The position numbers and the translations under genes are program-made. DNA of 64,000 bases from Hericium rajendrae (taxonomy: Eukaryota > Basidiomycota > Agaricomycetes > Russulales > Hericiaceae), in NCBI GenBank assembly GCA_033439255.1, contig CM065882.1, positions 2,666,001 through 2,730,000 of the forward strand, in the 5' to 3' direction. Below the pieces are notes generated by a model. The model ran no database searches. It saw only the letters and a list, made by a program, of their open reading frames with translations, and was not told the DNA's origin. Positions 17,449 to 45,861 of this stretch are shown here, piece after piece (within the stretch, counting starts at the first letter, position 1; every line of letters begins with the position of its first letter).

Positions 17449-20400
17449 TCACTCCCCAACGGGCGTATCGAGAAGCGGCAGATTATTCCAATCCGCAGCT
17501 GTATGAGCGTAGGTAAGCCCAGGGGCGACGGGTCACAGGTCAGGAAAATCTTACTATTAGCGTAGACGTTGTTTCCCCACCAATTGAGATTGATCGTCCC
17601 GTGCTTTGGGAACTGGGCGGCCAGTCAGCAACGAAACACAGACGCTTGATGGGATGTGAACTCTCACCTGCAATGTGAAGAATATGAAAATCAGGGATAT
17701 CACAGTGCCTGGCACAGCGTGTCAGCTCCCTGGGACCCTTGAGACGAAAACAGATCGAAACACACCGCTATCGAGCCCCGCGCTCGTGACATAGTTGAAC
17801 TTGCTCCACCATGCAAAGTTGCGCTTGCGGATGAGGAACTGGAAGATGAAACCAACTGCGAACCATGAGGAGAAATTGATGCCTGTCGCGGGCGGGATGT
17901 AGGACACGCCATTGAGGAAGATCGGTGTGCTGATGACCTTCACCCACGACGTCGGGTAGCGCCGCTGCCATAGCCAGAATGGGATCGGCAGGAACGCGCC
18001 GACGATGATGGCGTACAGCTGCGGATGGTAGATAGACCCGTTGCCGAATTGCCGGCTTGGACCGATGAGACCCCTGCATGCAAAGAAAGATGTCAGCCAG
18101 AGACATAAGGGGAAAAAGAGTGAGCGGACGCACCAGATAGCAGAGGCAGTGAAGTAGACCTGGTTGTGTGGGCAAACGAGTTGGTCTGGTTGATCGGGCT
18201 CGCAGATGTCTTTGACATTGCTGAAGATCCACATTTTGACGCCGACCTGCAGAAATGCGGCCAAGACCGTCGCCACCAGTTGCACTGCGCGAAGGGCCCA
18301 TCAGCCTCATCCGATGCACAACTGCGTGAGACATACCAAGGAACGTGGCGCGAGGCGGCACTTTAATGTAATGTCCGAGCTTGAGATCCTGCACGAAGGA
18401 TGTAGCCTCAGTGAGCGTCTGGATCGAGTAGCCCTTGAAGACCTGCAGGAGCAAGAGTTGAAAAGCAGTTAACATTACTGTAAAAATAAAGAACTGACCA
18501 TGTTCGCAAGGGGATTGCCCGGTAACAGCGTTCCAGGAACGATTTGCGCGAGCAGATTCAGCGTAATCTGAAAAACATGCAGGGTCAGTATCAAAGCTAG
18601 TAAAATGACAGGTAAATGACGCACTCCTTGACCTGTCATCGCATAGATGAACCCAGACGGGAGGACATAGATGATTGGCAGGAGCACCGCGAGCAGCAGC
18701 GCCCACACTGGCACATTCGTATGCCACACCTACTGCACATCAGCCCAAATCCACCGAGAGCAGAGCACAGTGGACCCACCTCCATCCCCACAACCGCCAA
18801 GCAGAAGAAAAACACGAAGGCAGTGAGGTACCACCAATCCGGTACCTCGGGGTAATTGCGCATCAGCTTCGCGTGGATATCGTCCTTCTCGATTTTCATA
18901 CGCTTGAGGCCATTGAGAAGACTGCGCCCGTGGTAGAGCAGCGTGTGCACGATCACGCACGTCGAGAGCGTGAACGCGAGCAGGTATGTGATTGCGTACG
19001 ACGCAGGCAGGTATAAGGGCGAATAGTCGTTGTACGCCGTCAGGTTGAAAGTGTCGTCCTTCTGCATCACGCGTGAGACATTGTATACATTGCCGAAACG
19101 GTCGTATGGCTCATTCGCAAACATCGGGAAGTGCGCCAGGCTCCAGGCCTGCACGAGGGTTAGTGGGCCGTGTTATTTCGGGAAGAAAAGCGGCTCACGT
19201 TTGTGTAGTAAAGAATGGGCGTAAGGATCCAGTAGAAGATCACAAAGCCCACGAAGATGTGGACTTCGGCCCACCAAGGGATCATCAGGGGCGAGCCGAC
19301 CCAGGTGATGCGCGACCAGTCGAACGTGATGATACTCATGCCCAACCCATTCTCCACACCAAAGAGCTGGTTGAGCGGGATATTGTTCGGTGCGATCCAG
19401 CATACCCATGAGAATACGGATAATGCCTGGAAAAGATAGCCGGGGAGATAGAAGAAGAAGAATGCGCCGAGGCAGACGTAGAGGAAGAAGCGGTAACGCG
19501 TCACGCCCCCCGTGCCCTCGTCGTCCTCCGCGTGAAGGGTATTTAGCAAGGTGCACGCGACGAGATTCTGCGGCCACACCATGCTAGCGGGCCAGACAAG
19601 GAAGCGGCGACAGAGTCCTGCCAAACCAAAGCCAGTCGCCTGCGTTGCGAGGACAAGCACGACGCTGAACCAGAAGCCCATATCGTAGTTGTAGTACTTT
19701 TCTGACACGACAATCGCGTTCAGCGCGTACGGCGGGCCGACGGCAACGTTTGCCATGATGAAGACAAGCACGTGCTCCTTTATGTTCCACGGTCCTGGGT
19801 TGAACGAAAATTCGTATGAACCGAGGAAGCGCGGGAGACGGTACACCGTGATAGGCAACGAGAAGGCAGCAAACTTGCCGATCGGGTGCGCAACCAGGAG
19901 GAGCATTAGCGGAACAACGCTCGGTGCCGGTGCGCGGAAGTTGAAAAAGACGTTCATGGCACTGTAGCGGGTAAGAAAAGAGAGAAACGGGAATAAAGGA
20001 AAGAACTAACCTTCCGGTCATGCATAGAAGGAGTCCGACGACCCACATTCGTATTGTCATGGCTGGCATCTCGGGGTCATCGATGTTCGACACCGACGCG
20101 CGGACTTCAGGGAACGGACTGTCCTCCTCCTCAACTGTGTCAAAATCGAACTCCATCCTGGGGACCACCATCAATACGATGACTCGGAAAAAAATGAATG
20201 AGACCGACTTGATCGAACGCGAATCGTCTGCATCTACGCCCAAATCCTCCAACCCGCCTTCCAGCACGCTCGACCCTTCCGAGATGCCTGACGATCGCCG
20301 CTTTGCCTTGGGCATGTCTAGGTCCGGAGAGACGGCATCCTTGTCGGGGAGAGAGACATGGACTTCGCGGGAACTGACGCCGCTGGTTGGGGCGGAGACG

Positions 20401-24222: not shown

Positions 24223-25227
24223 ATGGCAACGGCTCTTGTTCTGACTGCCATGGACTCTGGATGGGTTCTTCCTGATCCTGACCTTGACGATCCGGAACGT
24301 ATTGTCAAGGCCTCTGGCACAGAGGAGACGATCAACAATGCCATTTTGCGGCATCCTGAATACTATTTCGACGACGGCTCGCTTGTAGTTCTGGTGCGCA
24401 GCTCATATGTCATCCTCCTCGATTAGAAGAACTCACACAGATCTTGGATTCCAGGTCGAGAACGTCCTTTCCGCATCTTCAACTCCACCTTGACAAGACA
24501 TTCACGTTTTTTCTACGAACTCTCCAGTTCTTCTTCTCGCCTTCCCGGTGAAGCATGCGACGGCACATCTGACGCGCGCCCACTCAAGATCGAAGGCATC
24601 TCCGCCCTCGACTTCGAACGCCTCCTATCTATCCTGTACCCAGCGTCCGTCCTCAGCCGCCTTCGTCTGCCTTCTTCATGCCCTCTGATCGTCTCCGTCT
24701 CTTCACAGTCACATCGGCGTGGAAACGACCATGACCGCAGATGAATGGACCTCCGTGCTGCACCTCGCCACCCAATGGCAGTTCGCCGACATCCGCACGC
24801 TGGCGATCCGCTCGCTGCAGGCGCTGCCCCTCGATCCGCTCGACAAGATTGTCCTCTCGCGTGAATACGGCATCGGCACGCGCTGGACCCTCGATGCGTA
24901 CGTGGAGCTGTGCGAGCGGCCCTCACCGTTGTCCATCGAGGAGGCTGGCCGCCTCGGACTCTTGAAACCGCGACGCGGGTCGCCCAGCTGCGCGAGAAGC
25001 TCGTGCGGCGCAGCGTCAACGCGGGCCAGACGCGCGTGGAGGTGCTATCGCGGCGGAGCATCGAGGGCAAGGGTCTGCCGTCGGGCATACCGATGGGGCA
25101 TGCGCGGCGGAATTCGCTGCCTGCACATCTACGCTCGCCGCCGCCGAGCCCGGGCCGCCAGCGGCTGCCGGTCGTGCTGCGGCTCGCGGCACAGACGTTT
25201 GGACTGGACATGTGCGAGACGAATTGA
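24223..25227 (+). CDS. BTB/POZ domain protein 1 (two apparent frameshifts)
   Basis: First of three paralogous BTB proteins here; fungal members of this kind are of unknown function, while BTB domains often dimerise or bind cullin-3. The N-terminus carries ILRHPEYYFDDGSLVVLV, then an intron (24394-24454), then VENVLFRIFNSTLTRHSRFF, an intron after LYP (about 24643-24710), ADEWTSVLHLATQWQFADIR, TLAIRSLQALPLDPLDKIVL and ETATRVAQLREKLVRR, ending LDMCETN. The block HPEYYF-DDG-VE-VLFR-...-LA-QWQF-LAIR-LE is shared with the other two copies. The frame shifts at about 24468 (T-run, one base short between VENVL and FRIFN) and about 24962 (CTCT, two bases too many before ETATRV). The gene is either newly broken or misassembled. 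ATG 24223 precedes an alternative ATG at 24250. Confidence 0.7.
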
Positions 25228-26459: not shown

Positions 26460-27647
26460 ATGCACAGAATCCAGCCACCACTTTCCCCGGTCGGGTCCCG
26501 GTGTCAACGCCGGCATCCCGAGTACTATTTAGACTCAGGGGACATCATCTTCCTAGTAAGTGGTGAATTCAAATTTCAAGGATCTCGCGACGTTTTCGGC
26601 GTTGATGACCATACAGGTGGAAGACATCCTTTTTCGTGTACACAAGTACTTCTTCCTTAGAGAGAGCGAAGAGTTTCGGAAGGGCCTACCACACCCCCCG
26701 CTCCCCGGGCAGAAAATACTGGGAGCGTCGGACGACAACCCGTTTCCGCTGGACGATGTATATTCAGATGACTTCGCGAGATTCCTTTGGGTTTTCTACA
26801 ATCCGTAAGATTCACTTTTTGATCACGTACAGTTGTGCTCATGTTCGCTTAGAGAGTACTCGTTTGAGGGGGTCACAGTCGAAGATTGGTGCAGTATACT
26901 GATGCTTGCGCATCGATGGCAGTTCCCAAAAATCCATGCCCTCGCGATCCGCGAGCTCGAGAAATTGGAGATCGGCGCCGTCAAGAAGATTCTCATCTAT
27001 CACGATTACGCGGGCCCTGAACATCTTCTTATTCCCAGCTACACCCTCCTGACACTGCGAGATGATCCTCTGAGCATGGAAGAGGGGAGAGCCTTGGGAC
27101 TTGAAGTTTCATTGCATATTGCAAAGGCGCGCGAGGCTGCTCGTGGCCAATCCGACGAGACGGGCCAGAGAAGTGCTGGCCCGGTTACCCTTGAAGATGG
27201 TGATCTGGAAGACCTGGTTATGGGTGTCTTCAACGTCACAGATGCTTCTCCAACAGATGGCAACTCGACGACACGACGGCCGAAAAGCTCCACATCCGTG
27301 AGTGACTGCATGTCCATGTCCTTCGGCGCTGGGGTCATTGCCTGACTTGTACATCTGGTGTCATCTTCGGGCTCACCTAGACTTCGGGCTCACCTAGACT
27401 TGTTTCACAGCACAAAGTCCCGATCATTTCGCAGCCGAATGGTGCGTCGACTAACGGCGGACACCACAATTCCGAGAAACCTGGTCCCGACGCGCAGTCC
27501 GGGGACAGTGTCAAGTTCGAGCCCAAGGCCGGCAACGAGGCGAAGACGTCAGCTGGAAAGGGAGGCAACCCGTCGGGAAAGAAAGGTAGGACATATTTTG
27601 GGGATGAGCTCGAGATACTAAAGTCTAATGTCGTAGGCTCCAAGTAG
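26460..27647 (+). CDS. BTB/POZ domain protein 2
   Basis: Second BTB paralogue, reading cleanly through its exons. MHRIQPPLSPVGSRCQRRHP leads to EYYLDSGDIIFL, an intron to about 26617, VEDILFRVHKYFFLRESEEF, the loop DNPFPLDDVYSDDFARFLWV, an intron after FYNP (26805-26852), EYSFEGVTVEDWCSILMLAH, RWQFPKIHALAIRELEKLEI, the conserved HDYAGPEHLLIPSYTLLTLR and DLEDLVMGVFNVTDASPT. An intron at 27298 to about 27409 leads to a Gly/Asn/Lys-rich tail SHKVPIISQPNGASTNGGHH, and a last intron of about 44 bases leaves the end GSK at 27645-27647. Strongly similar to BTB gene 3 along its length and less so to gene 1. The molecular role is unknown. Confidence 0.82.
27363..27398. repeat. short tandem duplication in an intron
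   Basis: A 17-base unit CTTCGGGCTCACCTAGA occurs twice head to tail inside the third intron of BTB gene 2. A simple replication-slippage product, with no coding effect. Confidence 0.8.
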
Positions 27648-28487
27648 GCTTTGACCTGTCGCTTTGGCCGATGTAAGTTGGCTTCGCGGGATGCTTGACG
27701 ATGCGGAAGTAGAAGTCCATCCACGTTCGTCTCGGAAGTACTCGCCTCGGACATCGTTGCGCATATGCGATTGTTTCATCTTGTCGTGATCTCTTTGTAT
27801 GTGTACGCAGTCTTGGATTTCAGTTTCTTTGATGTTGTCATATTGTACTTTATCAGCATCATCCATGTCTGTACTCTCGCGTTTGTATTTCTGTACGTGT
27901 GTCATGTTCTAATACGATGAGCATTTTGTGCATCGTGTCCTTGTAGCCGCACTCCCATTAAACTTGTTTGTCCAGTAAAATACTGAATTATCCCGCGCGC
28001 AAAGAACTCTCGGAACTACAGTACCACTCTGGGTGACAGTTCAAAGTCGGATCCTCCTAGGATCCTCGTGTTCTAAATGCTCGAGATCGGCGTCCTTCCG
28101 ACATCTACGATTTCCATATTCGATTGTGGGTGCGATAAGTGCTCCTGGATGGGTCGAGTGATCTGGGTCATTTGAGCTGCTCAGACTGCGCTCTTCACAA
28201 ATTCGTAATTTCTGTGCATGATTGTCTTACGATCACGACGAGTTATATCTGATCGGTCTTCCTCGACATGGTCTGCCCTTGCCCTATTCTTCGGGAAGTA
28301 CATGTGTCAGGGTTTCATACCTTCCATACCTCGAGTTCCCATCGAGCCGGCCCTCGAGGTGGGACTCGACTATTGACTATTGTGCCGTGTACGTGTAGAG
28401 CATCTCGTCAAAATGCCTGCAGGGCGCTTGACAAACAGTGAACTGGCAACGTTATGTACAAGGGCAAACACAGTGTTCTCCGACGTA
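27648..28487. other. region upstream of the transposon (former BTB gene 3 promoter)
   Basis: About 0.84 kb between the BTB gene 2 stop and the transposon. Before the insertion this sequence lay directly upstream of the TATA box of BTB gene 3, so it probably holds the original upstream elements of that gene. An inverted repeat ACCTCGAG (28328-28335) and CTCGAGGT (28353-28360) could be a regulatory palindrome. No coding signal. Confidence 0.5.
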
Positions 28488-28511
28488 CTGTACCATTTCG
28501 ATCGGTTCACC
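28488..28511 (+). repeat. left terminal inverted repeat
   Basis: 24 bp starting CTGTACCATTTCGATCGG and ending TTCACC. It matches the reverse complement of 33499-33522 at 23 of 24 positions (an A/G difference at position 22). It follows directly on the TA duplication. Confidence 0.95.
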
Positions 28512-28620
28512 ACCCCCTTGTGACTGTGACAGGGTGCGGTGAATTTATGGCTTCACCGGACTCCAGTTGTGACTGTGACCTCATCATAATTTGGCCATCA
28601 TGGTGATTTCACCGGGCCGG
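28506..28620. repeat. left subterminal repeat block
   Basis: A 13-bp motif TTGTGACTGTGAC occurs at 28518-28530 and again at 28567-28579. The hexamer TTCACC (or its complement GGTGAA) occurs at 28506, 28538, 28552 and 28608. Repeated subterminal motifs of this sort are often transposase binding sites in other DNA transposons; that role is inferred here. Confidence 0.75.
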
Positions 28621-28957
28621 TAAGAAGCACAGCCGGAGATCTCGATAGACTTTTAAGTTTTGATCACTGCAGGTCAGTCGGCGATGCGACCTGCTATGTG
28701 GACCCACATTTCGTGCTTGTGTGTAGGGCATAATAACGGAGTAAGTACCTGCAAATAAACTAGAAATCATAAGTTTAGCTTCATATAATGATGCTATGAC
28801 CTTTTCTATGTTATTTTAAAGACGGAGTGACCAGTACCTTACTGCCGCAATCATATTCAGCCATGTTGTTGTCGGAGCATCCCGACTTATTAGTTTTCAA
28901 GTTTTCGGCGCGTAAGCTAGGAGCTTGCACCATAGCCTTGACTGCGAAGCCTCTGCC

Positions 28958-31900
28958 ATGGCTGATCCAACTCTCCCATTCAAACACCCATCTCTCGAGA
29001 TTCCCCCAGATGTCAAAGATTTTCTACTCCCTAGCGCAGACCTCTCCGTCCTTGAATTCATTCAATTTCCCCTTCCCATCATCACAAAGTCCTCAGCAAA
29101 AAGGGCTGCCATTGATTTCTTTAGTCATGAAGCTGTCAACTGCGAAATCTCTACGATCATTCAGAAGATACCAACCCCCTCACAGAAAATAATTGTGGAC
29201 CTGGCCAATGCCTGCGATGCTCTCATAAGAGCTGGAAGCACGTCTCTTGTCTGCACACACATTCCGTCAGCCTCCACTCGACGACTGCCGTTGTGGACCA
29301 TCGTGTACTGGGCCGAAGTGAACCAGCTTCAGAAGGATCGAGAACCATGGATACGGGCAGAGGATGCACTGCAGAAGCGGAAGAGAGTCTGGGAGAAGGC
29401 AAAACGGGGTCAGACGTCTTATCCTATCATCGAAGAGGTCTATGACACATTATCCACCTTACCGTGGTCTGGCGCCATGCGGGGATTTGATAGGGAACCA
29501 CTACAATCGCTTGCGACGTACACAATCCCGACGGCATGGTTCTCCGAAGTTCACCAACTACAAATGCTCGAATTGCTGCGTCTAGATATGACGACTAGCG
29601 AGCGGCGCTTGCAAATCGAACTTGAGAATCTGGAGTTCATCAAGAAAATGAAACAAGCTTACCACGAAGACCAGTTGAATTCCGAATCGTATGGCGTCAG
29701 TCGCGAGTTCTCTCGTTTGCGAGGTGTAGGCCAGGCCCTTGAAGCTGGAGAACGCGATGCAGTGGCTATGATGATGAATGTTGAAGACTGCCATTGGGTG
29801 ACAGTTGTCGTAGACTTCAAGCAGTCGCAAATCTTATACGGTGATCCGAAGGGCTGGATGATCAAGGACGACCTCCTGGAAGCACTTCGCTGGTGGACAT
29901 TCTATCATACTGGCCGCATATTTGTTTTCAATCTCCTAGAAAGCTCGCATCAAAAGGACAATCATAGCTGCGGGCTTCTTTCATTCAATAGCCTTGCTCA
30001 TTTCTGCTTACCTGACCGTCATCCTCTTATTGATATTGGAACTGTTGCAGATGAACGTCTTCGAGTCCTGCTTCGAGTGGTACAACGTCATCTTGATCCG
30101 GTGAGTTGATGCTTTCTGTGATAGACATGAGTAGAGCTGACTGACTGGGAACGTGTTAGACATTTGAAGTTGCGAGTCATGGATTTCAATTTACCTTTTC
30201 ATCACCACTGAAGAAGGTCTTCTATACGGAACATGCGTCAAAGAGTTCGCTATCGCAGGACAATGATGAAGTTGGACCATGGGATGGAAGCGCAAGCCAA
30301 GATCACCTGGAAGGTTTCTCATCTGATGCGGGGTTTGACATACCACTGGAGTCCGAGGCGATGTCCTTACGATCCATGACAAGCGACGTCTCATCTGTCG
30401 GCGACAACTCAAATGAGTCATCAACTCTATCGCAAACAAAGAAGCCTACATTCTTGCGCCGAGTCCTGCGGCGCGTGTCATCTCCGATCAAGACGGTGGG
30501 CAACGATCCTGGACCATCTATGAGACGGGCAAGTTCTCCCCGGTCAACGCAGTCCACTCCACTCCATTACAAAAGTGTTACGGCCAGCAATGCCTCCAAC
30601 TCGTCTTCGTCGGATAGCCTGCCCTCTCGGATTGCATCCAGTCATCGAAAGCCAAGGCCTTCTGTGTTGTCGGACCAATCTGCTGATGCTGACGTGGCCC
30701 CTGCGAGCGTGAAATCCAAGCGCATGTCGTCGGACCAATCCGCTGATGCTGACGCAGCCCCTGCGAGTGCGAAATCCAAGCGCATTCGCGTCAGTTCAGC
30801 AATCAACACTGCTTTAAAAGAAGCTGCTAGTGACGCACCAAAGGGGCTGATGCGATGGCTACACAAGGCTAGCCCAACACAGCGTCGTGCGCAGGTTGAT
30901 CGCGCTACAGAGGAGAGTCAAGAGTTCTTCGCAGAGAATCAGGTCCGCGAACAAGAACACAAGGAACGGAAGCGCGAAGAGAAGCGCGAAGATGCCAGGG
31001 TTCGTCAACAGAAGTCCCGGCAGGCCAAAAAGGTTCAAGAAATTGTCATTGGGACTCGTAGCCCAAACGGCACCAAGCGTAAAGGGAAAGTAAGTGTCAA
31101 TAGCAATGCCCCAAAAGGATTGAATACTCACGCATTTCACAGCAGAAAACAGTTGATGACCTTCGAGATGACACAAGCAAGAGGCCGAAGCTAGACGTAG
31201 CTGAGCTTTCACGTCCAGAGCGTCGCACGAGAGACCGCTTGAGGACCCAAAACCGCAAGCCACAGGGCCGTAAACGCCAGAAAGAACAGAAGAGCGCGGT
31301 CTACATAAACTGGCATACCCCTTTCCTTTGGAACCAGATTGATGCTGCGCAGAAAGCAGTCAGAAGCTGGAGCCCAACAGAGATTTGCAAGTACCTAAAG
31401 AATAAAGACTCTACCACATTCGCCAAGATTTCGCGCGAGACTCTACGCGCCTGGATCGACCGCCCTGATAATGAAGCACCACGATGGTCAGAAGCGGCAA
31501 TTCGCATGAACGAACTAGGAAATCACCAAGCGGAAGGGAATCGAGGCGGTCGACGGGGGATCTTGGTATGTGGTGCTGCATGATATCCAAATATGGTGTT
31601 CTGATTTTACCATAGGCCCGTCACCCTGATGTAGTCGAAGCAATCGTGAAGCGGCTTGAGGCGTTGCGTGCTGCTGCAGCTCCAGTCAGTCTTGTCACAG
31701 TGCGGGGTGTGGCTGTCGCATCGATCCTGCACATGCGGCCTGAGATCTTCGAGGAGAAGATATCAAAAGACGGCTCGAGCTTCCGATGCTCTGACTCTTA
31801 CCTTCGTCAATTTCTGCATGGAAATCTCAACTGGTCAATAAGGCGTTCAACACAAGCGGGTCATAAATTACCGGACAACTGGGAAGAGCTGTGCGAACGG

Positions 31901-33214
31901 GCATTCTTGCGGATGGCTTGGACTGTCAAGGAGGAAGATGTCCCATCTGAGCTGGTAGTCAACAGCGATCAGACGCAAATGGTTTATGCGCAGGGCTCGA
32001 ATGTAACCTGGGCGAAGACAGGATCAGATCAGGTCCCCGTCCTTGGTCAAGATGAGAAACGTGCATTCACTGTCGTTGTGTCGCTATCCAACAGTGGGGA
32101 AATGCTGCCGTTCCAAGCCATCTACAGTGGTAAATCAGTTCAGAGTTGTCCAAAAAAGTCTGCTGCATGCTACAATAAAGCAATCAATGCTGGATTCCGA
32201 TTCGAACCTTCAAAAACTACGACGTACTGGTCCAATCACGAAACGATGCACAGCCTTGTCGACCATATCATCGCACCGTATTTCACGAGGCAGAAGCGTG
32301 CTCTTGGGCTTCCGGACTCACAGAAATGCATCTGGCAGATCGACGTGTGGTCAGTACATCGCTCCAAAGAGTTTCGATCATGGATGAAAAAGCATCACCC
32401 GACGATTCTGCTTCAGTACGTGCCTGCAGGCTGCACCGGTGTTTTTCAAGCTTGCGATGTCGGAATGCAACGGATCTTCAAGCATTCTTGCAAGCGATCC
32501 TATCACGAGGATGTAGTCACTGACATTCTTGGACAAATTGACAACGGCGCCGAAACGATCAAGATTGACAAGACCGTCGGTCTCCTGCGCGATCGGAGCG
32601 TCGTCTGGTTATGGACCGCTTGGGAAAACCTGAACAAACCTGACATTGTGAAGAAGGTAAGCCACATCTCAACTCTACAACGAGAAAGACTTACCAGTTC
32701 TCAGGCCTTTGAGATGTGCCGAGCGGGCGACTTCAACCTGTCGTACGAAAGCTTGACGAGCCGCGCTGCCCGTCTGAAATTGAACGGACTCAAAGAGTCC
32801 GACCCCGAGTTCCATGCGGAGATAACGAGGACTGCGTACAACGATGACAGTGTCCCGAAGGCATCTGAGGAGGGGCTGAAGGAGGATCAAGAAAATTTGG
32901 GTGTGGAAGACGACAGCGACCTGCCTTGTGAGGTCGTGTTGGCCGCGATGATGCAGCAAGACATTCCCATGCCTGTCAAACTCAATGATGAAGGCGCTCT
33001 CGCATCAGGCGCCCTCGCCGAGGACATTACCGACTTTGACGCCGATCCGGAAGGCTTTTCTGATGGCACCGAGCGCATGCACATTGACGACGATACCGCT
33101 CCCGGTGAGCAACCCGAACGCAAGACAGACGACTCGGAGGCACTACCTAGAGGGCGAGGGCTCCGAAAGAAGATACCCAACAGCTTGTACACTGATGAAT
33201 TCTGGAGGCACTGA
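28958..33214 (+). CDS. Ulp1-type protease / DDE transposase fusion protein (1,364 aa)
   Basis: Exons 28958-30100, 30160-31089, 31143-31565 and 31616-33214 join in phase 0 into one frame. Residues about 1-400: a C48 (Ulp1/SENP-like) cysteine protease domain, with His279 in DCHWVTVVVDF, Asp296 in YGDPKGW and Cys338 in DNHSCGLLSFN. The His-Asp spacing of 17 equals that of yeast Ulp1. Residues about 400-690: a disordered Ser-rich region with a 20-residue tandem repeat, then a basic Lys/Glu/Arg helix. Residues about 745-825: an HTH-like DNA-binding segment (SWSPTEICKYLKNK, then ISRETLRAWID). Residues about 840-1150: a DDE_1/pogo-like catalytic core with Asp950 in VVNSDQTQMVYA, Asp1075 in WQIDVWSVHRSKEF and Asp1113 in VFQACDVGMQRIFK (38 residues apart). 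An acidic tail ends YTDEFWRH. The protein should cut and paste the element; the protease may process the fusion or remove SUMO/ubiquitin-like tags. The last is inference. Confidence 0.85.
30661..30780 (+). repeat. 60-bp in-frame tandem duplication in the transposase linker
   Basis: Two adjacent 60-bp units encode SDQSADADVAPASVKSKRM and SDQSADADAAPASAKSKRI. The copies differ at a handful of positions, so the duplication is older than the insertion. It lies in the disordered linker between the protease and the transposase halves, where length change is likely tolerated. Confidence 0.85.
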
Positions 33215-33424
33215 TACCACCGCAGCGGCATAGATGGCCATGTCGGATGAGTTATGGAGCTGTCTCAGACGAGGCTACGCTGATACCGCACAACACATCT
33301 GAATTTGCGGCATGTGGTCCAGACAGTGCATATACATACACCATAAATATGTACATGACCGCAGTCGTACAAAATGACCATAAATACCTACGAAAAGCTG
33401 ATTTTTTCAAGGACTCAAAACCAA

Positions 33425-33498
33425 TTCACCCCGTCCCGCTGTGACCTGCAACATGGGTCAAATTTCGCCTTCACCAGGACCCCCTGTGACATGTGACC
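33425..33498. repeat. right subterminal repeat block
   Basis: TTCACC occurs at 33425-33430 and 33470-33475, and GTGAC-type motifs at 33440-33445 and 33484-33498 (CTGTGACATGTGACC). These match motifs at the left end. The GTGAC units keep the same plus-strand orientation at both ends, so they are direct and not inverted. Confidence 0.65.
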
Positions 33499-33522
33499 GG
33501 CGAACCGATCGAAATGGTACAG
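33499..33522 (-). repeat. right terminal inverted repeat
   Basis: 24 bp ending GATCGAAATGGTACAG, the inverted partner of 28488-28511, followed at once by the second TA. Confidence 0.95.
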
Positions 33523-33530
33523 TATATAAG
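33523..33530 (+). promoter_or_regulatory. TATA box of BTB gene 3, at the transposon junction
   Basis: TATATAAG lies 115 bases before the BTB gene 3 start codon and in front of a pyrimidine-rich leader. Its first two bases are the right-hand TA target duplication of the transposon, so removal of the element and one TA would leave the same TATATAAG in the original locus (flanked by CGACG at 28481-28485). The core promoter survives, but its upstream sequence is now the transposon end. Confidence 0.75.
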
Positions 33531-33644
33531 CGACGGGGGCGGCCTCGTGCATCCAACACGTGTAGGCTCATTTTCTTCCCTTAACCCCCGTCTCTTACTC
33601 TTACTCCTTCACCACATACCCTCTCTCGCCTTCTCGATTTCATT

Positions 33645-34814
33645 ATGGCTTCATTGTCTGCGTCACCTGTTGCTGAACGTGTTCTTCGTCACGACTTGTA
33701 CTACATTCAAGGCGGCGATGTCATCTTCCGCGTACGTTATTCCATTTGACGCGTCTTCTGTGGGCAATGTTGACGATCATTCGATCCAACAGGTCGAAAA
33801 CTATCTCTTTCGCGTTCACCGATATTTCTTTGTTCGCGAGTCGCCTTATTTCCGAGAAAAACTTCCCCATCCCGCACCTCCGGGTGAGTTCAGCAAGGGC
33901 AAGGAGGATTCGAACCCTTTCGTCCTGGAAGACGCTCTCAGCGTTGATTTCGCACGTTTCCTTTGGGTTTTCTACAATCCGTACGTACCATATTTCTTTG
34001 AATGCGATGACAAGGCTGACCCACATCTAGCAAATACTCAATCTACCATGCCAACGTCGAGGAATGGACGTCGATCTTGAAGCTCGCCCACCAATGGCAA
34101 TTCGCGGAGATCAAGTCACTCGCCGTTCGCTCCCTGGAGGAGCTGGAAATCAACGCTGTGCGGAAGATCGTCATCTACCACAGTTATGAGATCGATCGCA
34201 ACTTGCTGCTCCCCTCATACACTGCGCTGACGACGCGCGAGGAACCCATCACGATCACCGAGGGCAAGGAGCTCGGATTGGAGACGTCGCTGCAATTGGC
34301 ACGTGCTCGCGAGGTCGCTCGCGGACCCAAATCACCCGCTGGCCTGTCGTGCCCGTCGCCCGTCAGGGTTGGTGCAACCGACCTGGACGTCCTGATCAAG
34401 GATGTCTTCGAGCTGCCACCTCGCGACGTCGCCGGCGTTATCCTCAAGGGCCCCGCGCCGCCCGCAAGCGCGACTCCCGGTGGCGTCGCCCCCAGCACAC
34501 CGACGACGAACGGCCACTCGACGCTGGCGAAGGGCATGGTGGGGGCACAGGCTGCAGGCCAGAACTCCTTTCGGACTCCACCAGGTGGATCGGTGATGAG
34601 TGCCTACTTACGCGCTTCTTCTAATGCTGACTTGTCTTGTCCCCCAGCAGCCAATGGTGCCCCCAATGGTACCGCCGCCCCCAACGGCGCCGCCCCAACA
34701 GCCAATGGAGCCGCCAACACCAACGGCAGCGCCAATCCCACCGCTAACGGTAATGGAAATGCAAATGGGAACGCCAACGCCGCTGGTCGCCAGCAGGCCA
34801 ACGGCCGGAAGTAA
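33645..34814 (+). CDS. BTB/POZ domain protein 3 with Asn-Gly-rich tail
   Basis: Third BTB paralogue. MASLSASPVAERVLRHDLYY leads to IQGGDVIFR, an intron (33732-33792), VENYLFRVHRYFFVRESPYF, DSNPFVLEDALSVDFARFLW, an intron after FYNP (33980-34030), KYSIYHANVEEWTSILKLAH, QWQFAEIKSLAVRSLEELEI, HSYEIDRNLLLPSYTALTTR, TSLQLARAREVARGPKSPAG and a DLDVLIKDVFELPPRDVAGV segment shared with BTB gene 2. The C-terminus is low-complexity (ANGAPNGTAAPNGAAPTANG and onward), ending QQANGRK at 34812-34814. Third-base variation in the Asn and Gly codons supports this reading frame. A 55-nt intron-like stretch at 34593-34647 would, if removed, shift the frame into the long downstream coiled-coil frame, so a second, much longer product is possible. 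Confidence 0.83.
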
Positions 34815-34875
34815 GGCGCAGGATCCGCCGCCGCCGCCTCCAGGGCCCCAGGAGGAGCAGGTGAACACGCGGCTG

Positions 34876-37800
34876 ATGAACGGAGGTGGGGCAGAGGATG
34901 ATGGTGCGAAGTTGTCGGCAGCGGGAGGGCCCGTGGGGAGCGAAAATTCACTTTGGTTACGGAGGGCAGTGGGCGAGCCCATCAGGTCCGGGGCGAGCCC
35001 GCAGAGGAGAGAGGAGACGGAGACCGGAGCGGGAGGGAGGACGGAGCTGCCGTCGTCGACGCAAGGCGCCTCGAGGAACCAGATAGTGCCTGCAAGGAAG
35101 GACGACCTGAAGATCGTCACGGAGTCCTCACGCGAACCTAAAACCCAATCGCAAGGTCGTCCGCCAAAGGCAAAGGATCACCAGAGCCAGAGCAGGAGCA
35201 GTACTTCGCGGTCGGGGCTCTTCGGCTGGGCCGGTGTTCTTTTGGGTGGGGGTGACGACGATGCGCTCACATCGCCCGACGAGCCTGAATATTCAGCGGT
35301 GGCCGACGAGAGTCCCATGGTCGGCGGCTGGCCTGCGAACGTCAATCGACCCAATCTCGGCCGCGATCTGGCCAGGGAGAAGGAAGAGCAGGCTCGAGCT
35401 GAGGCAGAGGCGAAGGCAAAGGCGGACGCAGAGGTCAAGGCGAAAGCCGAAGCTGAAGCGAAAGCCAGGGAAGCCGAGGCAGCTAGGGTCAAGGCGGAGG
35501 CTGACAAGAGAAAGGCTGACGAACAGGCGGCGGCGGCGAAGAAGGCGGAGGCGGCGGCGAGGAAGAAGGCAGCGGATGAGAGGGCGAGACAGGAGGCCGC
35601 GAAGAAGGCCGAGGAGGACGCGAAGGCTGAAATTGCGAGGAAGAAGGTGGAGGAGGACAAGAAAAAAGCTGATGAGGCGGCGGTCACGAAGGCACAGCAG
35701 GAGGCCGAGAGGAAGGCGCGCTGACGCTGCTGCAAAGCTCAAGGAGAAGGCGAAGGAGGCCGCAGCCAAGGCCGACGCGGATAAGAAGGCCAAGGAAGAA
35801 GCTGCGGGAAGAAGATGGAAGAGGAGACGGAGAAGGCTGCTGCTGCGGAAGCTGAGGCGAAGGCGAAAGCTGAGGCGGAAGCTAAGGCGGAGGCAGAGAA
35901 GAAGGCGGAGGCGGACAGGAAAGCGAAGAAGGCCGCGGACAAGGCTGAGGCCGACGCTGCCACGAAGGCTAAACGAAAGCTGATGCTGATGCGAAAGTCG
36001 AAGCGGAGGCCAAGGCGCTGATAGAGAAGAAGGTGGAGGAGGCCGACAAGGCGAAGGAGGAGGCTGACAAGAGGATGAAGGAGGCAGCGGACAAGGAGGC
36101 TGAGGCTTCCGCGAAGGCTGCTGCCGAAGCTAAGGCGAAAGCTGCTGCCGAAGCAATGGCTCGGGCGGAGAAGGAGGAGGCCGAGAAAAAGGTGAAGGAG
36201 GAAGCCGAGAAAAAGGCGAAGGAGGAAGCCGAGAGGAAGGCGAAGGAGGAAGCAGAGAGGAAGGCGAAGGAGGAAGCAGAGAGGAAGGCAAAGGCTGAAG
36301 CTGAGGCGAAAGCCAAGGCGGAGGAGGAGGAGGAGGAAGCAAGGAAAACGAAGGAGGCGGCGGCGGAAAAAGCTAAGTCAGAAGCGGAGGCGAAAGCCAA
36401 AATCGAGGCTGACGCGAAAGCGAAAGCTGATGCTGATGCGCAAAAGGCTGCTGACGAGGTGAAGTCGAGGGACGAGGCGCGGAAGGTGCAGGAGGCTGAA
36501 GAAAAGAAGAAGGCCAAGGAAGACGCTGCCAGGAGGAAGGCCGATGCGGACGCAGAGGCTGCCCGGAGGTCCGAGGCTCTGGTTGCTGAGACACGGAGGA
36601 AGGACGCCGAGGTGAAAAAACTAAACGCTTCGAGAACTTCTTCAGGTTTGTTTCCGATGAAGTCTACATACCTAGTAGTCGCTAACCGTCATTTGCATGA
36701 AGGTCTCGCCGTCGAGTCCAAGGCCCCTACAGGGACTTCACCAGCCGGACAACAGTCCAATGCTTGGAACAAGTCTCCGCCGGCGGCGCCGACTGTCAGA
36801 AATGCGGGCGCAGCGGAGAGTCCACCCACTCCCACGACGTCCTCAAATCCATGGGCAAGGCCGCCGAAATGGGGTAAAGCTCTGTCCTCACTTTCGAGCG
36901 TGGCTAGCCAAGCGGTCAGCCACATCACTGGGTCCCCTTCTCCTCCAACCACTCCCCCAGTCACGAGTCCTCCGTCTGCATCCCCGAACGAGAGGACCAG
37001 AACCGGTCAACCTCCGCCTCCGAATACCAATACCAAAGCCACCACTAGTACTTCCAATGCGTGGGCTGCCGCCGTCGACGTCAACGCTCGTCCGCCCACC
37101 CTTGCTCCACCCAAGTCCACTTCCAGCGCCACGGAGCCTGCTGCAGGCAAGCGCAACGATGAGCAACCGCCACCGCCACCGCCACCTGCAATGGCCGACT
37201 CCTCCAAGAACACCTCCGATAAGCCTGTCGCCGCCCCAGCCCAGAGTGCCGAACAGCCCGAGACGAAAGCAGCTAAAGCCGACGACAAACCAGCCAAGGA
37301 GCCTAGGCCCGCAACGCAGGGTGCCGATAGACCTGCGGAAGGCACGGCGAAGGTCGACGACAAGATTGCGACCGACGCTGGCAAGCCTGTCCAAGCCGCC
37401 GCGAATGCTGGCGAAAAGCCTACGCCAGATGTCGTCGAGAGCACTGAAATCCCCGAGGCGGGATCAGCGGAGGAACCCGCTGCAGACGTAGCCAAGGACG
37501 CGGACGCTGCCAAGGACGCGGATGCAGCCGAGGACGCGGCCAAGGACACTGACGCAAGCAAGAATGCGGACGCACCCAAGACCAAGAGAGCAAACGCGAA
37601 AGCGTCTGTTGCCTCTATCAATCCTGCTGCCGCGGGGGGTAACCAGCCTAAAGACGAGCAGGTCGTCGATACTCCGGTCATCCCGACACTTGCACGGGTT
37701 GGTACCGCTGAGAACGACAATGACTCTGCGAGCGAGGCAGGCGGTGGCGGAACGATGAGTAAAACCGCCAAGAAAAGGCAGAAAAAGAAGGAGAAGGACG

Positions 37801-38195
37801 AGAGAGAAAAGGCGGAGAGGGAGAAGGCGGGGAGGGAGAAGGCGGCCAAGGGTAAGACGAACAGTCCGTGCTCCGAGTCTCGAATGGATTTGAACACCGT
37901 AGATATTGCGCAGGTAAAGCATGAAGTTGAGGCTGATGACTCTGTCTCGGTGACTCCTTTGCTTGATTCTGGTTCCGGGGATGATGTTGTTGACACCGAG
38001 CAAGATAGTTGGGGCTGGGAGGACGAGGATGGAGATGCGGAAGAGGGCATCCTCTCGGGTGTAAATATGGATGGCAAGGAGACCAGGGTGGAACGGGACG
38101 GCAAGCTCGTGGACGTGAATACGGGCCTGCCGACTCCCGCACCTCCGCCTGCACCTGCAGATGATCTGCCTGGCGGTAGCATGGCTACCGCCTAA
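34876..38195 (+). CDS. long Ala/Lys/Glu-rich coiled-coil protein (or C-terminal part of a BTB fusion)
   Basis: Function unknown. The first part contains GLFGWAGVLLGGGDDDALTS and DESPMVGGWPANVNRPNLGR. From about 35370 to 36620 a TolA-like charged helix follows, built of EAEAKAKA, EEAERKAK and related heptads. It is predicted coiled coil of about 400 residues. Next come Pro/Ser/Thr-rich parts with two Asn-x-Trp boxes (SNAWNKSP, SNPWARPPKWGKALSS), an acidic-Ala repeat (KDADAAKDADAAEDAAKDTD), a basic stretch KTAKKRQKKKEKDEREKAER and a tail DSWGWEDEDGDAEEGILSG ending GGSMATA. The coiled-coil frame shifts three times (about 35715, 35805 and 35968), each mended by one base in a short run. Likely introns lie at 36647-36703 and 37854-37914. 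The frame is open upstream to 34600, so the true start may be an exon of BTB gene 3; ATG 34876 is only the first in-frame ATG after the BTB stop. Confidence 0.55.
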
Positions 38196-43903: not shown

Positions 43904-44480
43904 TTGTTCGAATCATACCGCAATGAGCCTATGTGCATTACCACATACAGAGCGATACAGCGGAATTGGACAGGTCAGCCACCCCTGCCATGCCGTTGGC
44001 AAGTTGGGATAGATCGGACTGTGCAGAGGCTAGATGTCCAGTACGAAAGAATCCGCAACTACCTTAGGGGTAAACTTTGTCTAGCTTCCCTTAATGTGCC
44101 TCAGAGAATCCTTGATGTAGGATGAGCGAATTTCTATATTTCAACGTCAGGATCGACGCCGCTCAAGAGAAACCGTAAACTCACCTAGTTCCGTAGCGCA
44201 CGTTCAGGTGTATGGTTAATCAACTGCCTCGCGCGGGTTCGCTGCGGAAACCCGCTCACGTCCGACAGGGCCACGCAAGATGTTCCTGACGTCGAAGTCG
44301 TGACCGAGCCCGAGCTTTCGTGTCACTGTCTCTAAACGCTCCCTCCGAATACGAGAGTTGAATGTATGGTCATCACTGTGCCATTTCCATCCGAGCCAGG
44401 GGTCTTCAATATCATACACGTCCGCTCGTGATCTGCCATGTACGTGATCATATCCAGAACGACTGTCTTCTGCGTGAGGT
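43904..44480 (+). pseudogene. decayed SAM-dependent methyltransferase, copy 1
   Basis: Fragments of the same gene family as the next entry. RLDVQYERIRNYLRGKLCLA and SLNVPQRILDVG (44023-44125) match the N-terminal part of copy 2 and end at a stop just where the SAM-binding glycine motif should continue. Further on, pieces such as FPSEPGVFNIIHVRS (about 44383-44430) correspond to LPFKPGTFDVVHVRF in copy 2. The region between holds stops in all relevant frames and the C-terminal half is missing. An old, truncated tandem duplicate. Confidence 0.6.
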
Positions 44481-44780
44481 CAGCAACGGACATTAGGGAT
44501 GACCACCTGTCCTTTCCCCCCGAGGAGGGATAAACCGACTCTCCACACCACATTGTTGCCACCACCCTCGCAACTCGCTCATATGTCTTCGCTTGTAGCA
44601 ACATCCACGGGAGGAAGGGGTTCTTCGTATGGGTTTCAGGTTTATCGCATTGCTGCTCAATCCACGCTGGCTTGTTGACCCCAAGCCTCGCCTTTTCCTG
44701 CAGAATGGTACGGAGGAATGAAAAGGTCAGTCGCATGTGCTGTTTTGCTGGCAGGTTGGAACAAATCAGACTCTTCACAG

Positions 44781-45861
44781 GCTCGATTACCAGTACGCTG
44801 CGATCCGAGATTACTTCGGGGGCAAGCTCTGTCTGGCGCCTCTTGGTGCGCCCTGAAGGATTCTTGACTTAGGGTGCGCATCTATATGCTCTTTAATCCG
44901 ACGCTGCCTGTTCACAAGAGACTACGCACTCACCTGACTCTGCAGCACAGGGTCTGGCGCTTGGTAAGTTGGCCGCCTATCGTACATATGGGCGCAGAAA
45001 GCTGCACACGTCTGGCAGGGCGATACATGCTGCGCAGGAATTCCCTGAAGCCGAAGTCATGGCGGCAGATATTGAGCTGCTCCCTTCTCGGTATGTTTGA
45101 CCATGCCCGTTACCATGCGGCATGGAGAAATCCAAGCGCTGACATGGTTGTCTCCAGACCACTTCCTCCGAACATGAGTTTTGAGCGTGTTGATATCACT
45201 ACCCCGCTCCCATTTAAGCCGGGGACTTTTGACGTCGTACACGTCCGCTTCGTGATCTGCCATGTGCGTAATTGCTTCTGTATGTTAGTACGCTCGGTGG
45301 TCTTCACGCCTCCACAGCTTTCTCACGGAGACACGGCGCTAGCCCGCATAGCTGAGCTCATAGCGCCTGGAGGCTGGCTCCTCATAGAAGAGATGAACGC
45401 CCCCGAGTATATAGATGGCGATGCACCTGGAGTGAAGGTTATGTTCGCAGCATACCCTGAGTATATGCGGACGAAAGATCAAACCCCGGAGATCAGCCGC
45501 ACGCTGGAGCAACAGATCCGCGGGCTCGATGGGTTCGACGAGGTCAACGTGGAGACCATCTCGGTTCCTCTCGGTGCGGCTGTGGACATGCCAGGTGAGC
45601 ACTGCCAGGATCATTCTGGGGACATTACTGCATCTGAACGTGGAATTGACGTCGCGCTTACAAGATCCGACCTTGCATGGACTCGGCGCAAGTCCTCACG
45701 CGCTCATTCATCGATGCGTACACGGGCAAGATGTCTGATGCTGCACGTCAATTTGGGATCACCGAGGAGATGCAGAAGAAGTCCGCGAGGAGGCAGCCAC
45801 ACGCTCATGGAAAGGCAAAACAGTGATGATCTGGACATGGTCGCGCAAGCGGTCTGAATGA
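44781..45861 (+). pseudogene. LaeA-like SAM-dependent methyltransferase, copy 2, nearly complete
   Basis: Class I methyltransferase of the LaeA-like type common in basidiomycetes; target unknown. Spliced pieces read LDYQYAAIRDYFGGKLCLAP, then RILDLGTGSGAWAIHAAQEF (SAM motif I across two introns), PEAEVMAADIELLPSR, PLPPNMSFERVDITTPLPFK, PGTFDVVHVRFVICHV, ARIAELIAPGGWLLIEEMNA, RTLEQQIRGLDGFDEVNVET, SFIDAYTGKMSDAARQFGIT and WKGKTVMIWTWSRKRSE. Two defects are visible: an in-frame TGA just before RILDLG (about 44860) and a one-base shift near 45770 before VREEAATRSWKG. The 5' exon is not certain. With the decayed copy 1 beside it, a dying tandem pair is the best reading, though single-base assembly errors could also explain this copy. 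Confidence 0.65.

Follow-up and report, generated by a model that had tools for sequence, protein, structure and literature searches.

A TA-flanked, apparently intact DNA transposon of Hericium rajendrae with a predicted protease-transposase protein

A preliminary description of a 64,000-nucleotide stretch of the basidiomycete Hericium rajendrae (GenBank assembly GCA_033439255.1, contig CM065882.1, positions 2,666,001 to 2,730,000; hereafter the window, with positions counted from its first letter) proposed that a DNA transposon there carries a single gene fusing an Ulp1-type protease to a pogo-like transposase. To decide whether the locus bears this out, we examined the 5.04-kb segment at 28488-33522. 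Our analysis supported the presence of a protease-like part and a transposase part in one reading frame, inside an apparently intact, TA-flanked DNA transposon that is probably autonomous. With middling confidence, we read it as a cut-and-paste transposon of the IS630-Tc1-mariner/pogo kind that inserts at TA and encodes one protease-transposase protein, which would remove SUMO tags locally.

Boundaries and subterminal motifs of the element

The left end of the element reads CTGTACCATTTCGATCGGTTCACC. The right end is its reverse complement, with one mismatch in 24 positions, and a TA dinucleotide abuts each end. These ends and flanks, which the preliminary description had noted, were confirmed. 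Theirs was the only 24-bp inverted pair with one mismatch or fewer in the window (the scan returned four overlapping offsets of this one pair, each given in both directions), and no such pair appeared in 20 shuffles made in two-base blocks. The 20-bp core of the ends occurred twice in the window at three or fewer mismatches, compared with an expected 0.02 occurrences. Because the inverted ends are unique in the window, TA stands on both sides and the flanks joined without the element give an uninterrupted site with a single TA copy, we consider the element to be real.

Inside the ends, we observed four copies of a motif, TTCACC-N7-10-TGTGAC, all on the plus strand, two at each end of the element and none elsewhere in the window. 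The expected number in the window was 0.04 and at least four copies were found in 0 of 100 shuffles, although these figures are flattering because the pattern was chosen after the repeats had been seen. We regard the four motifs as candidate sites for binding by the encoded protein.

One reading frame with protease-like and transposase-like parts

From the ATG at 28958 to the stop codon at 33212-33214, removal of three phase-0 introns (59, 53 and 50 bp) left 1,364 codons without an internal stop, as had been described; in this three-intron model, exons 1 to 3 are those of Table 1 and the last exon spans 31616-33214. A fourth intron is likely in addition. The 48 bp at 32657-32704 start with GTAAGC, contain CTTAC near their end and finish with TTCTCAG, and by these splice signals they are probably an intron, in which case the protein has 1,348 residues. 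Its length is divisible by three, so the frame stays open if this stretch is retained. All four introns, the probable one included, are 48-59 bp long with GT-AG borders, and each has a branch-like CTNAY sequence that lies 11-19 bases ahead of its 3' end.

Codon usage pointed to the same frame. When each exon was scored with usage from the others, the proposed frame was positive for all five exons (0.063 to 0.107), including the linker exon, and the other five frames were negative for every exon. Exon 2, the linker exon, runs for 310 codons without a stop, an event with a chance probability of about 1e-6. In a finer test, we split this exon into five 186-bp pieces and compared the three forward frames; three of the five clearly favored the proposed frame. 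The linker also holds an in-frame tandem duplication of 20 codons (60 bp) at 30665-30784, with copies 90% identical.

The N-terminal part matched the Peptidase_C48 profile (PF02902, cut-off 20.7) with 21.4 bits when exon 1 was the query (residues 195-299) and 23.3 bits when residues 201-381 were used (residues 213-302). Among the five rows returned from solved structures for this part, the best was the ULP_PROTEASE chain 7fiu (E=0.012), in whose alignment an H, a D, a Q and a C stand opposite His279, Asp296, Gln332 and Cys338, respectively; the other four were apparently unrelated, with E values of 0.45 or more. The residues of the previously proposed triad, His279, Asp296 and Cys338, are present, and so is Gln332; Gln332 and Cys338 were assigned by inspection and from this weak alignment. 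His279 and Asp296 lie 17 residues apart and Gln332 and Cys338 lie 6 apart. Yeast Ulp1 has the same two spacings. As controls, the reversed exon-1 and exon-4 proteins gave no Pfam match at E values up to 10.

Toward the C terminus, the DDE_1 profile (cut-off 22) scored 22.4 bits on exon 4 alone (31616-32656). The match starts at residue 984-985 and includes Asp1075 and Asp1113, while Asp950 precedes it and is assigned by eye. All three aspartates named in the preliminary description are present, and the 37 residues between the last two make the triad DD37D. Judged by eye, residues ~745-905 presumably form two helix-turn-helix halves, like the DNA-binding regions of pogo-type transposases. HTH_32 was the only helix-turn-helix profile matched, and weakly so (E=0.011; 16.7 bits against a cut-off of 33.7). 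Searches of solved structures returned nothing for the DDE exon at E values up to 5 and two unrelated rows for the DNA-binding segment (E of 0.93 and 1.1), and none of the three protein segments submitted to NCBIfam matched.

Table 1. Features of the element in window coordinates
Feature	Position	Strand	Basis or remark
Left TA target-site duplication	28486..28487	.	Sequence inspection
Left terminal inverted repeat, 24 bp	28488..28511	+	Inverted-pair search, shuffles, core search
Subterminal motif copy 1, TTCACC-N7-TGTGAC	28506..28524	+	Overlaps left inverted repeat by 6 bp
Subterminal motif copy 2, TTCACC-N10-TGTGAC	28552..28573	+	Motif scan of window
Exon 1, residues 1-381, ATG to end of C48-like part	28958..30100	+	Frame, profiles, codon usage
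Ulp1/C48-like catalytic region, residues 195-345	29540..29992	+	PF02902 over part; weak 7fiu alignment to residue 344
Putative catalytic residues His279; Asp296; Gln332; Cys338	29792; 29843; 29951; 29969	+	Inspection, 7fiu alignment
Intron 1, 59 bp, with CTGAC twice as a branch-like site	30101..30159	+	Splice signals
Exon 2, residues 382-691, Ser-rich linker with 20-codon duplication and Lys/Arg/Glu-rich stretch	30160..31089	+	
Intron 2, 53 bp, join on which the fusion depends	31090..31142	+	Splice signals
Exon 3, residues 692-832, with the presumed DNA-binding region's first helix-turn-helix half	31143..31565	+	HTH_32 match weak
Intron 3, 50 bp	31566..31615	+	Splice signals
Exon 4, residues 833-1179, with the DDE_1 domain and the other half of the presumed DNA-binding region	31616..32656	+	
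Putative catalytic residues Asp950; Asp1075; Asp1113	31967; 32342; 32456	+	Asp950 assigned by eye
Probable intron 4 of 48 bp, whose retention keeps the frame	32657..32704	+	Splice signals only
Exon 5, residues 1180-1348 and stop codon; C-terminal tail acidic	32705..33214	+	Frame
Subterminal motif copy 3, TTCACC-N9-TGTGAC	33425..33445	+	Motif scan of window
Subterminal motif copy 4, TTCACC-N9-TGTGAC	33470..33490	+	Motif scan of window
Right terminal inverted repeat, 24 bp	33499..33522	-	Inverted-pair search, shuffles, core search
Right TA target-site duplication	33523..33524	.	Sequence inspection

Proposed activity and alternative explanations

Taking the ends, the TA copies, the frame, the marginal but above-chance domain matches, the catalytic residues and the motifs as the basis in the sequence, we infer the following mechanism. 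The element would encode a single protein in which a disordered linker joins an Ulp1-like (C48) cysteine protease to a DNA-binding region and a DD37D DDE_1 transposase. The transposase half would bind at the inverted repeats as well as at the four TTCACC-N-TGTGAC motifs, cutting and pasting the element as other TA-inserting DDE enzymes do. The probable task of the protease half is removal of SUMO or a SUMO-like tag; it would strip the tag at the ends of the element from host chromatin, from repair proteins or from the transposase, and the removal would be local to the ends because the protease is tethered to the transposase. Silencing would be weakened or repair helped by such removal, which agrees with published ideas on Ginger1 and on the Ulp1-bearing VANC proteins of VANDAL elements. 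A role in DNA repair during transposition has been suggested for the Ulp1 domain of Ginger1 (PMC2836005). In plants, VANDAL elements with Ulp1-bearing VANC-type proteins cause hypomethylation and recognize short motifs that related elements carry, and a 2026 review calls the precise role of Ulp1 in plant elements unknown (PMC13317346). Fungal transposons carry TET/JBP enzymes that are thought to counter silencing (PMC12730594). We favor local removal of SUMO-type marks at the element ends on the strength of such analogies, and the earlier suggestion that the protease alters SUMO-based silencing is plausible.

Several results weigh against this reading, in which protease activity, the protease target and transposition are all predictions. 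In the full 1,348-residue protein, Peptidase_C48 scored 19.9 bits, so that this profile passed its cut-off on trimmed segments and failed on the whole; its match also ends at residue 299-302, ahead of Gln332 and Cys338, and the alignment to 7fiu that reaches them is weak. DDE_1 behaved similarly, falling under its cut-off on 31616-33211 (21.1 bits) and in the full protein (21.3 bits). Two of the five linker-exon pieces were not clear in the codon test: the proposed frame scored 0.058 versus 0.065 for another frame at 30346-30531, and it was slightly negative, yet above the other two forward frames, at 30532-30717. We detected no Pfam match in the protein to CENP-B_N, HTH_ABP1_N, HTH_Tnp_Tc5, BrkDBD or HTH_psq. 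Single-sequence structure models were useless (mean predicted local distance difference test [pLDDT] scores of 34.1 and 32.9), because relatives were lacking. A second copy of the element was not found within the window. No relative emerged from five peptide-pattern scans (two of bacterial/archaeal genomes and three of viral contigs) or from a DNA scan in which viral contigs were searched for the element end, collections that are not meant to hold fungal genomes. The post hoc choice of the motif pattern counts on the same side, as does the combination of DD37D and TA in place of the DD35D and TAA that prevail in the Fot family.

A single chain would be the simplest reading of the frame, and the alternatives differ in where they depart from it. 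Protease and transposase might be two products of separate transcripts or starts, the fused frame being an artefact of the gene model. In-frame methionines at residues 502, 570 and 612 could start a transposase together with its DNA-binding part; C48 is known as an additional protein in CryptonS (PMC3212892), and the MULE group to which KIU belongs has it as a separate gene, one of three (PMC13317346). However, no stop lies between the domains, and exon 2 is stop-free and coding-like overall in the same frame. The methionine that follows Met612 is Met813, which lies within the presumed DNA-binding region; exon 2 and the join at intron 2 would thus still be required for a transposase that includes its first presumed helix-turn-helix. 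We regard two products as unlikely. Alternatively, the chain could be a self-processing polyprotein in which the C48 part cuts and frees the transposase, an idea already raised in the preliminary description. In favor of this possibility, cleavage by C48 proteases takes place beside Gly-Gly, and polyprotein maturation is carried out by viral relatives. The sole Gly-Gly, at 826-827, would however split the presumed DNA-binding region, and the sole site of the form [MIL]xGxG (the adenovirus protease consensus), at 254-258, falls within the protease part; neither lies in the linker (382-734), and a ubiquitin-like fold does not seem to precede either site. Because both sites are wrongly placed, self-cleavage becomes less likely, and we give it very little credence.

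Two further explanations would leave the single frame in place and change its meaning. The protease part could be a captured piece of a host Ulp1-like gene that travels as a passive passenger, dispensable for movement. Transduplication of Ulp sequences has been reported in plant MULEs and CACTA elements (PMC2528002, PMC13317346), and the Pfam C48 match here is partial and weak. Yet the four catalytic residues and their local spacing have been kept, and exon 1 contains no stops and is coding by codon usage trained on the other exons; we find a passenger role rather improbable, though it is the alternative we take most seriously. A tamed host gene that retains old transposon ends would agree with the one copy in the window. 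Tamed genes usually lose transposon ends, whereas near-identical ends, the TA duplication and the subterminal motifs are all present here, and we hardly believe in this explanation at all.

Relation to known transposons and setting in the window

How far the preferred reading, a one-chain protease-transposase in a TA-inserting element, resembles known systems can be judged by description. A survey of pogo elements gives lengths of 1.2-5.2 kb, transposases of 300-977 amino acids, TA duplications in most families with TAA or TAAA in some, and 29 up to 56-59 residues between the last two aspartates (PMC7386202). The element is similar in its TA duplication, its inverted repeats of no more than 40 bp, its DDE_1 part, its DD37D spacing and its 5.04-kb length, both of which lie in range. 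It differs in protein length, 1,348 residues (1,364 with intron 4 retained), beyond a reported range that is not a strict criterion, because the protease part and linker are added. It also differs in the N-terminal C48-like part. No pogo DNA-binding profile was detected in it; for the Mover family, the survey itself detected no DNA-binding domain (PMC7386202). Fot, the pogo family reported from Basidiomycota (in two classes), is almost entirely DD35D, with TAA in 341 of 385 elements and TA only in FotC and FotD. Lemi elements are DD29-42D with TA, and every fungal Lemi species for which the survey gives a group belongs to Ascomycota (Saccharomycotina and Pezizomycotina) (PMC7386202). DD37D falls within the ranges of both Lemi and pogoR. 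Compared in this way, by description, the element appears to fit the broad pogo superfamily and not to fit Fot. The earlier label "pogo-like" can therefore be kept for the marginal DDE_1 match, the TA and the D-D-D triad, but it finds no backing in a pogo DNA-binding profile or in likeness to Fot.

Ulp1-like proteases recur across unrelated transposon groups, namely Ginger1, MULE, CACTA and Crypton (PMC2836005, PMC13317346, PMC2528002, PMC3212892). Ginger1 comes close in that one protein holds a DDE-type transposase and an Ulp1 domain. By contrast, its transposase is Gypsy-integrase-like and bears the Ulp1 (or an OTU) domain at the C terminus, its duplications are CCGG/CCGT and it has been described from animals (PMC2836005); our element has a TA duplication, and no integrase-core profile was among its Pfam rows at E values up to 1. 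Some CACTA, MULE and VANDAL elements are likewise DNA transposons with an Ulp1 domain, rice has Tnp2+ULP1 proteins, and the VANDAL KIU/VANC system recognizes short motifs in the noncoding DNA of related elements; they differ in belonging to other transposase families and to plants, and the KIU Ulp1 is separate, as one of three genes (PMC2528002, PMC13317346). Among CryptonF and CryptonS are mobile elements that encode a C48 peptidase but have a tyrosine recombinase and no DDE transposase, and the C48-bearing ones have been reported from oomycetes (PMC3212892). KDZ and Plavaka are DNA transposons of Agaricomycetes with an extra enzyme thought to act against silencing; this enzyme is a TET/JBP dioxygenase, and KDZ (Zisupton) elements make an 8-bp target-site duplication, whereas ours has TA only (PMC12730594). 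In the available text of that paper, words that start with Ulp1, protease, peptidase, C48, Mariner or pogo do not occur.

The preliminary description had taken Ulp1 passengers to be usually separate genes and the fusion to be new. This went too far, because Ginger1 (PMC2836005) and the rice Tnp2+ULP1 proteins (PMC2528002) precede it. Among the open-access titles and abstract openings listed, a set with subscription papers mostly outside it, none described an N-terminal C48 part on a DDE_1, TA-inserting transposase, or any DDE_1 or TA-inserting element with Ulp1 fused to it. Ulp1-transposase fusion as such is already known, and the combination of N-terminal C48, DDE_1 and TA looks like an undescribed variant. 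DDE_1 and Ulp1-like proteins of a similar kind are common in agaricomycete protein sets; unnamed relatives therefore probably exist. It is a doubtful but appreciable prospect that the element belongs to a fungal family outside the described pogo families, with a motif-guided transposase that brings its own SUMO-type deconjugase to the element ends. SUMO marks that silence or block repair would be removed there locally, and a single protein would serve both to move the element and to counter its silencing. Since the element is compact, with one chain and few end motifs, a single protease-dead mutant could test the part of SUMO removal in movement, repair and escape from silencing. One viral-contig scan also produced two candidate stretches (L001 and L002; tblastn 4e-5 and 7e-5, respectively, in a comparison with the candidate stretches alone), which we rejected as phage-like chance matches because their frames seem to be phage genes for terminase, portal and head proteins and DQTQMVYA is common to both.

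The element sits at a TA within TATATAAG; the presumed ATG of the next gene (33645) follows about 120 bp downstream, and the insertion may thus have split the core promoter of that gene (33523-33645 region). Its CpG observed/expected ratio was 0.956, against a mean of 1.059 (standard deviation 0.061, minimum 0.952) over overlapping 5-kb stretches that include the element, and TpG was 1.26 versus 1.09 and 1.14 in the flanks. Lowered CpG with raised TpG is a possible hint of mild cytosine-methylation decay, too weak to be used for age. Three plus-strand regions in the neighborhood (24469-24961, 26614-27231 and 33490-34640) are related, with protein identities of 32-66%, and the element lies between two of them. 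They look like a local gene family of BTB type, although the two frames tested gave no Pfam match.

Scans of the window with Rfam and for tRNAs gave no match. Long, low-complexity open stretches rich in Ala, Lys and Glu, with many short tandem repeats, occupy 34600-38195. At 43997-45854, two adjoining stretches are similar to each other (68-71% by blastn; 41% in protein over 46 residues) and are perhaps a tandem duplication; one of them is methyltransferase-like (Methyltransf_23, E=1.7e-5, below its cut-off). A partial oligopeptide transporter (OPT) gene lies on the minus strand at 19160-20002 (Pfam E=2.6e-72).

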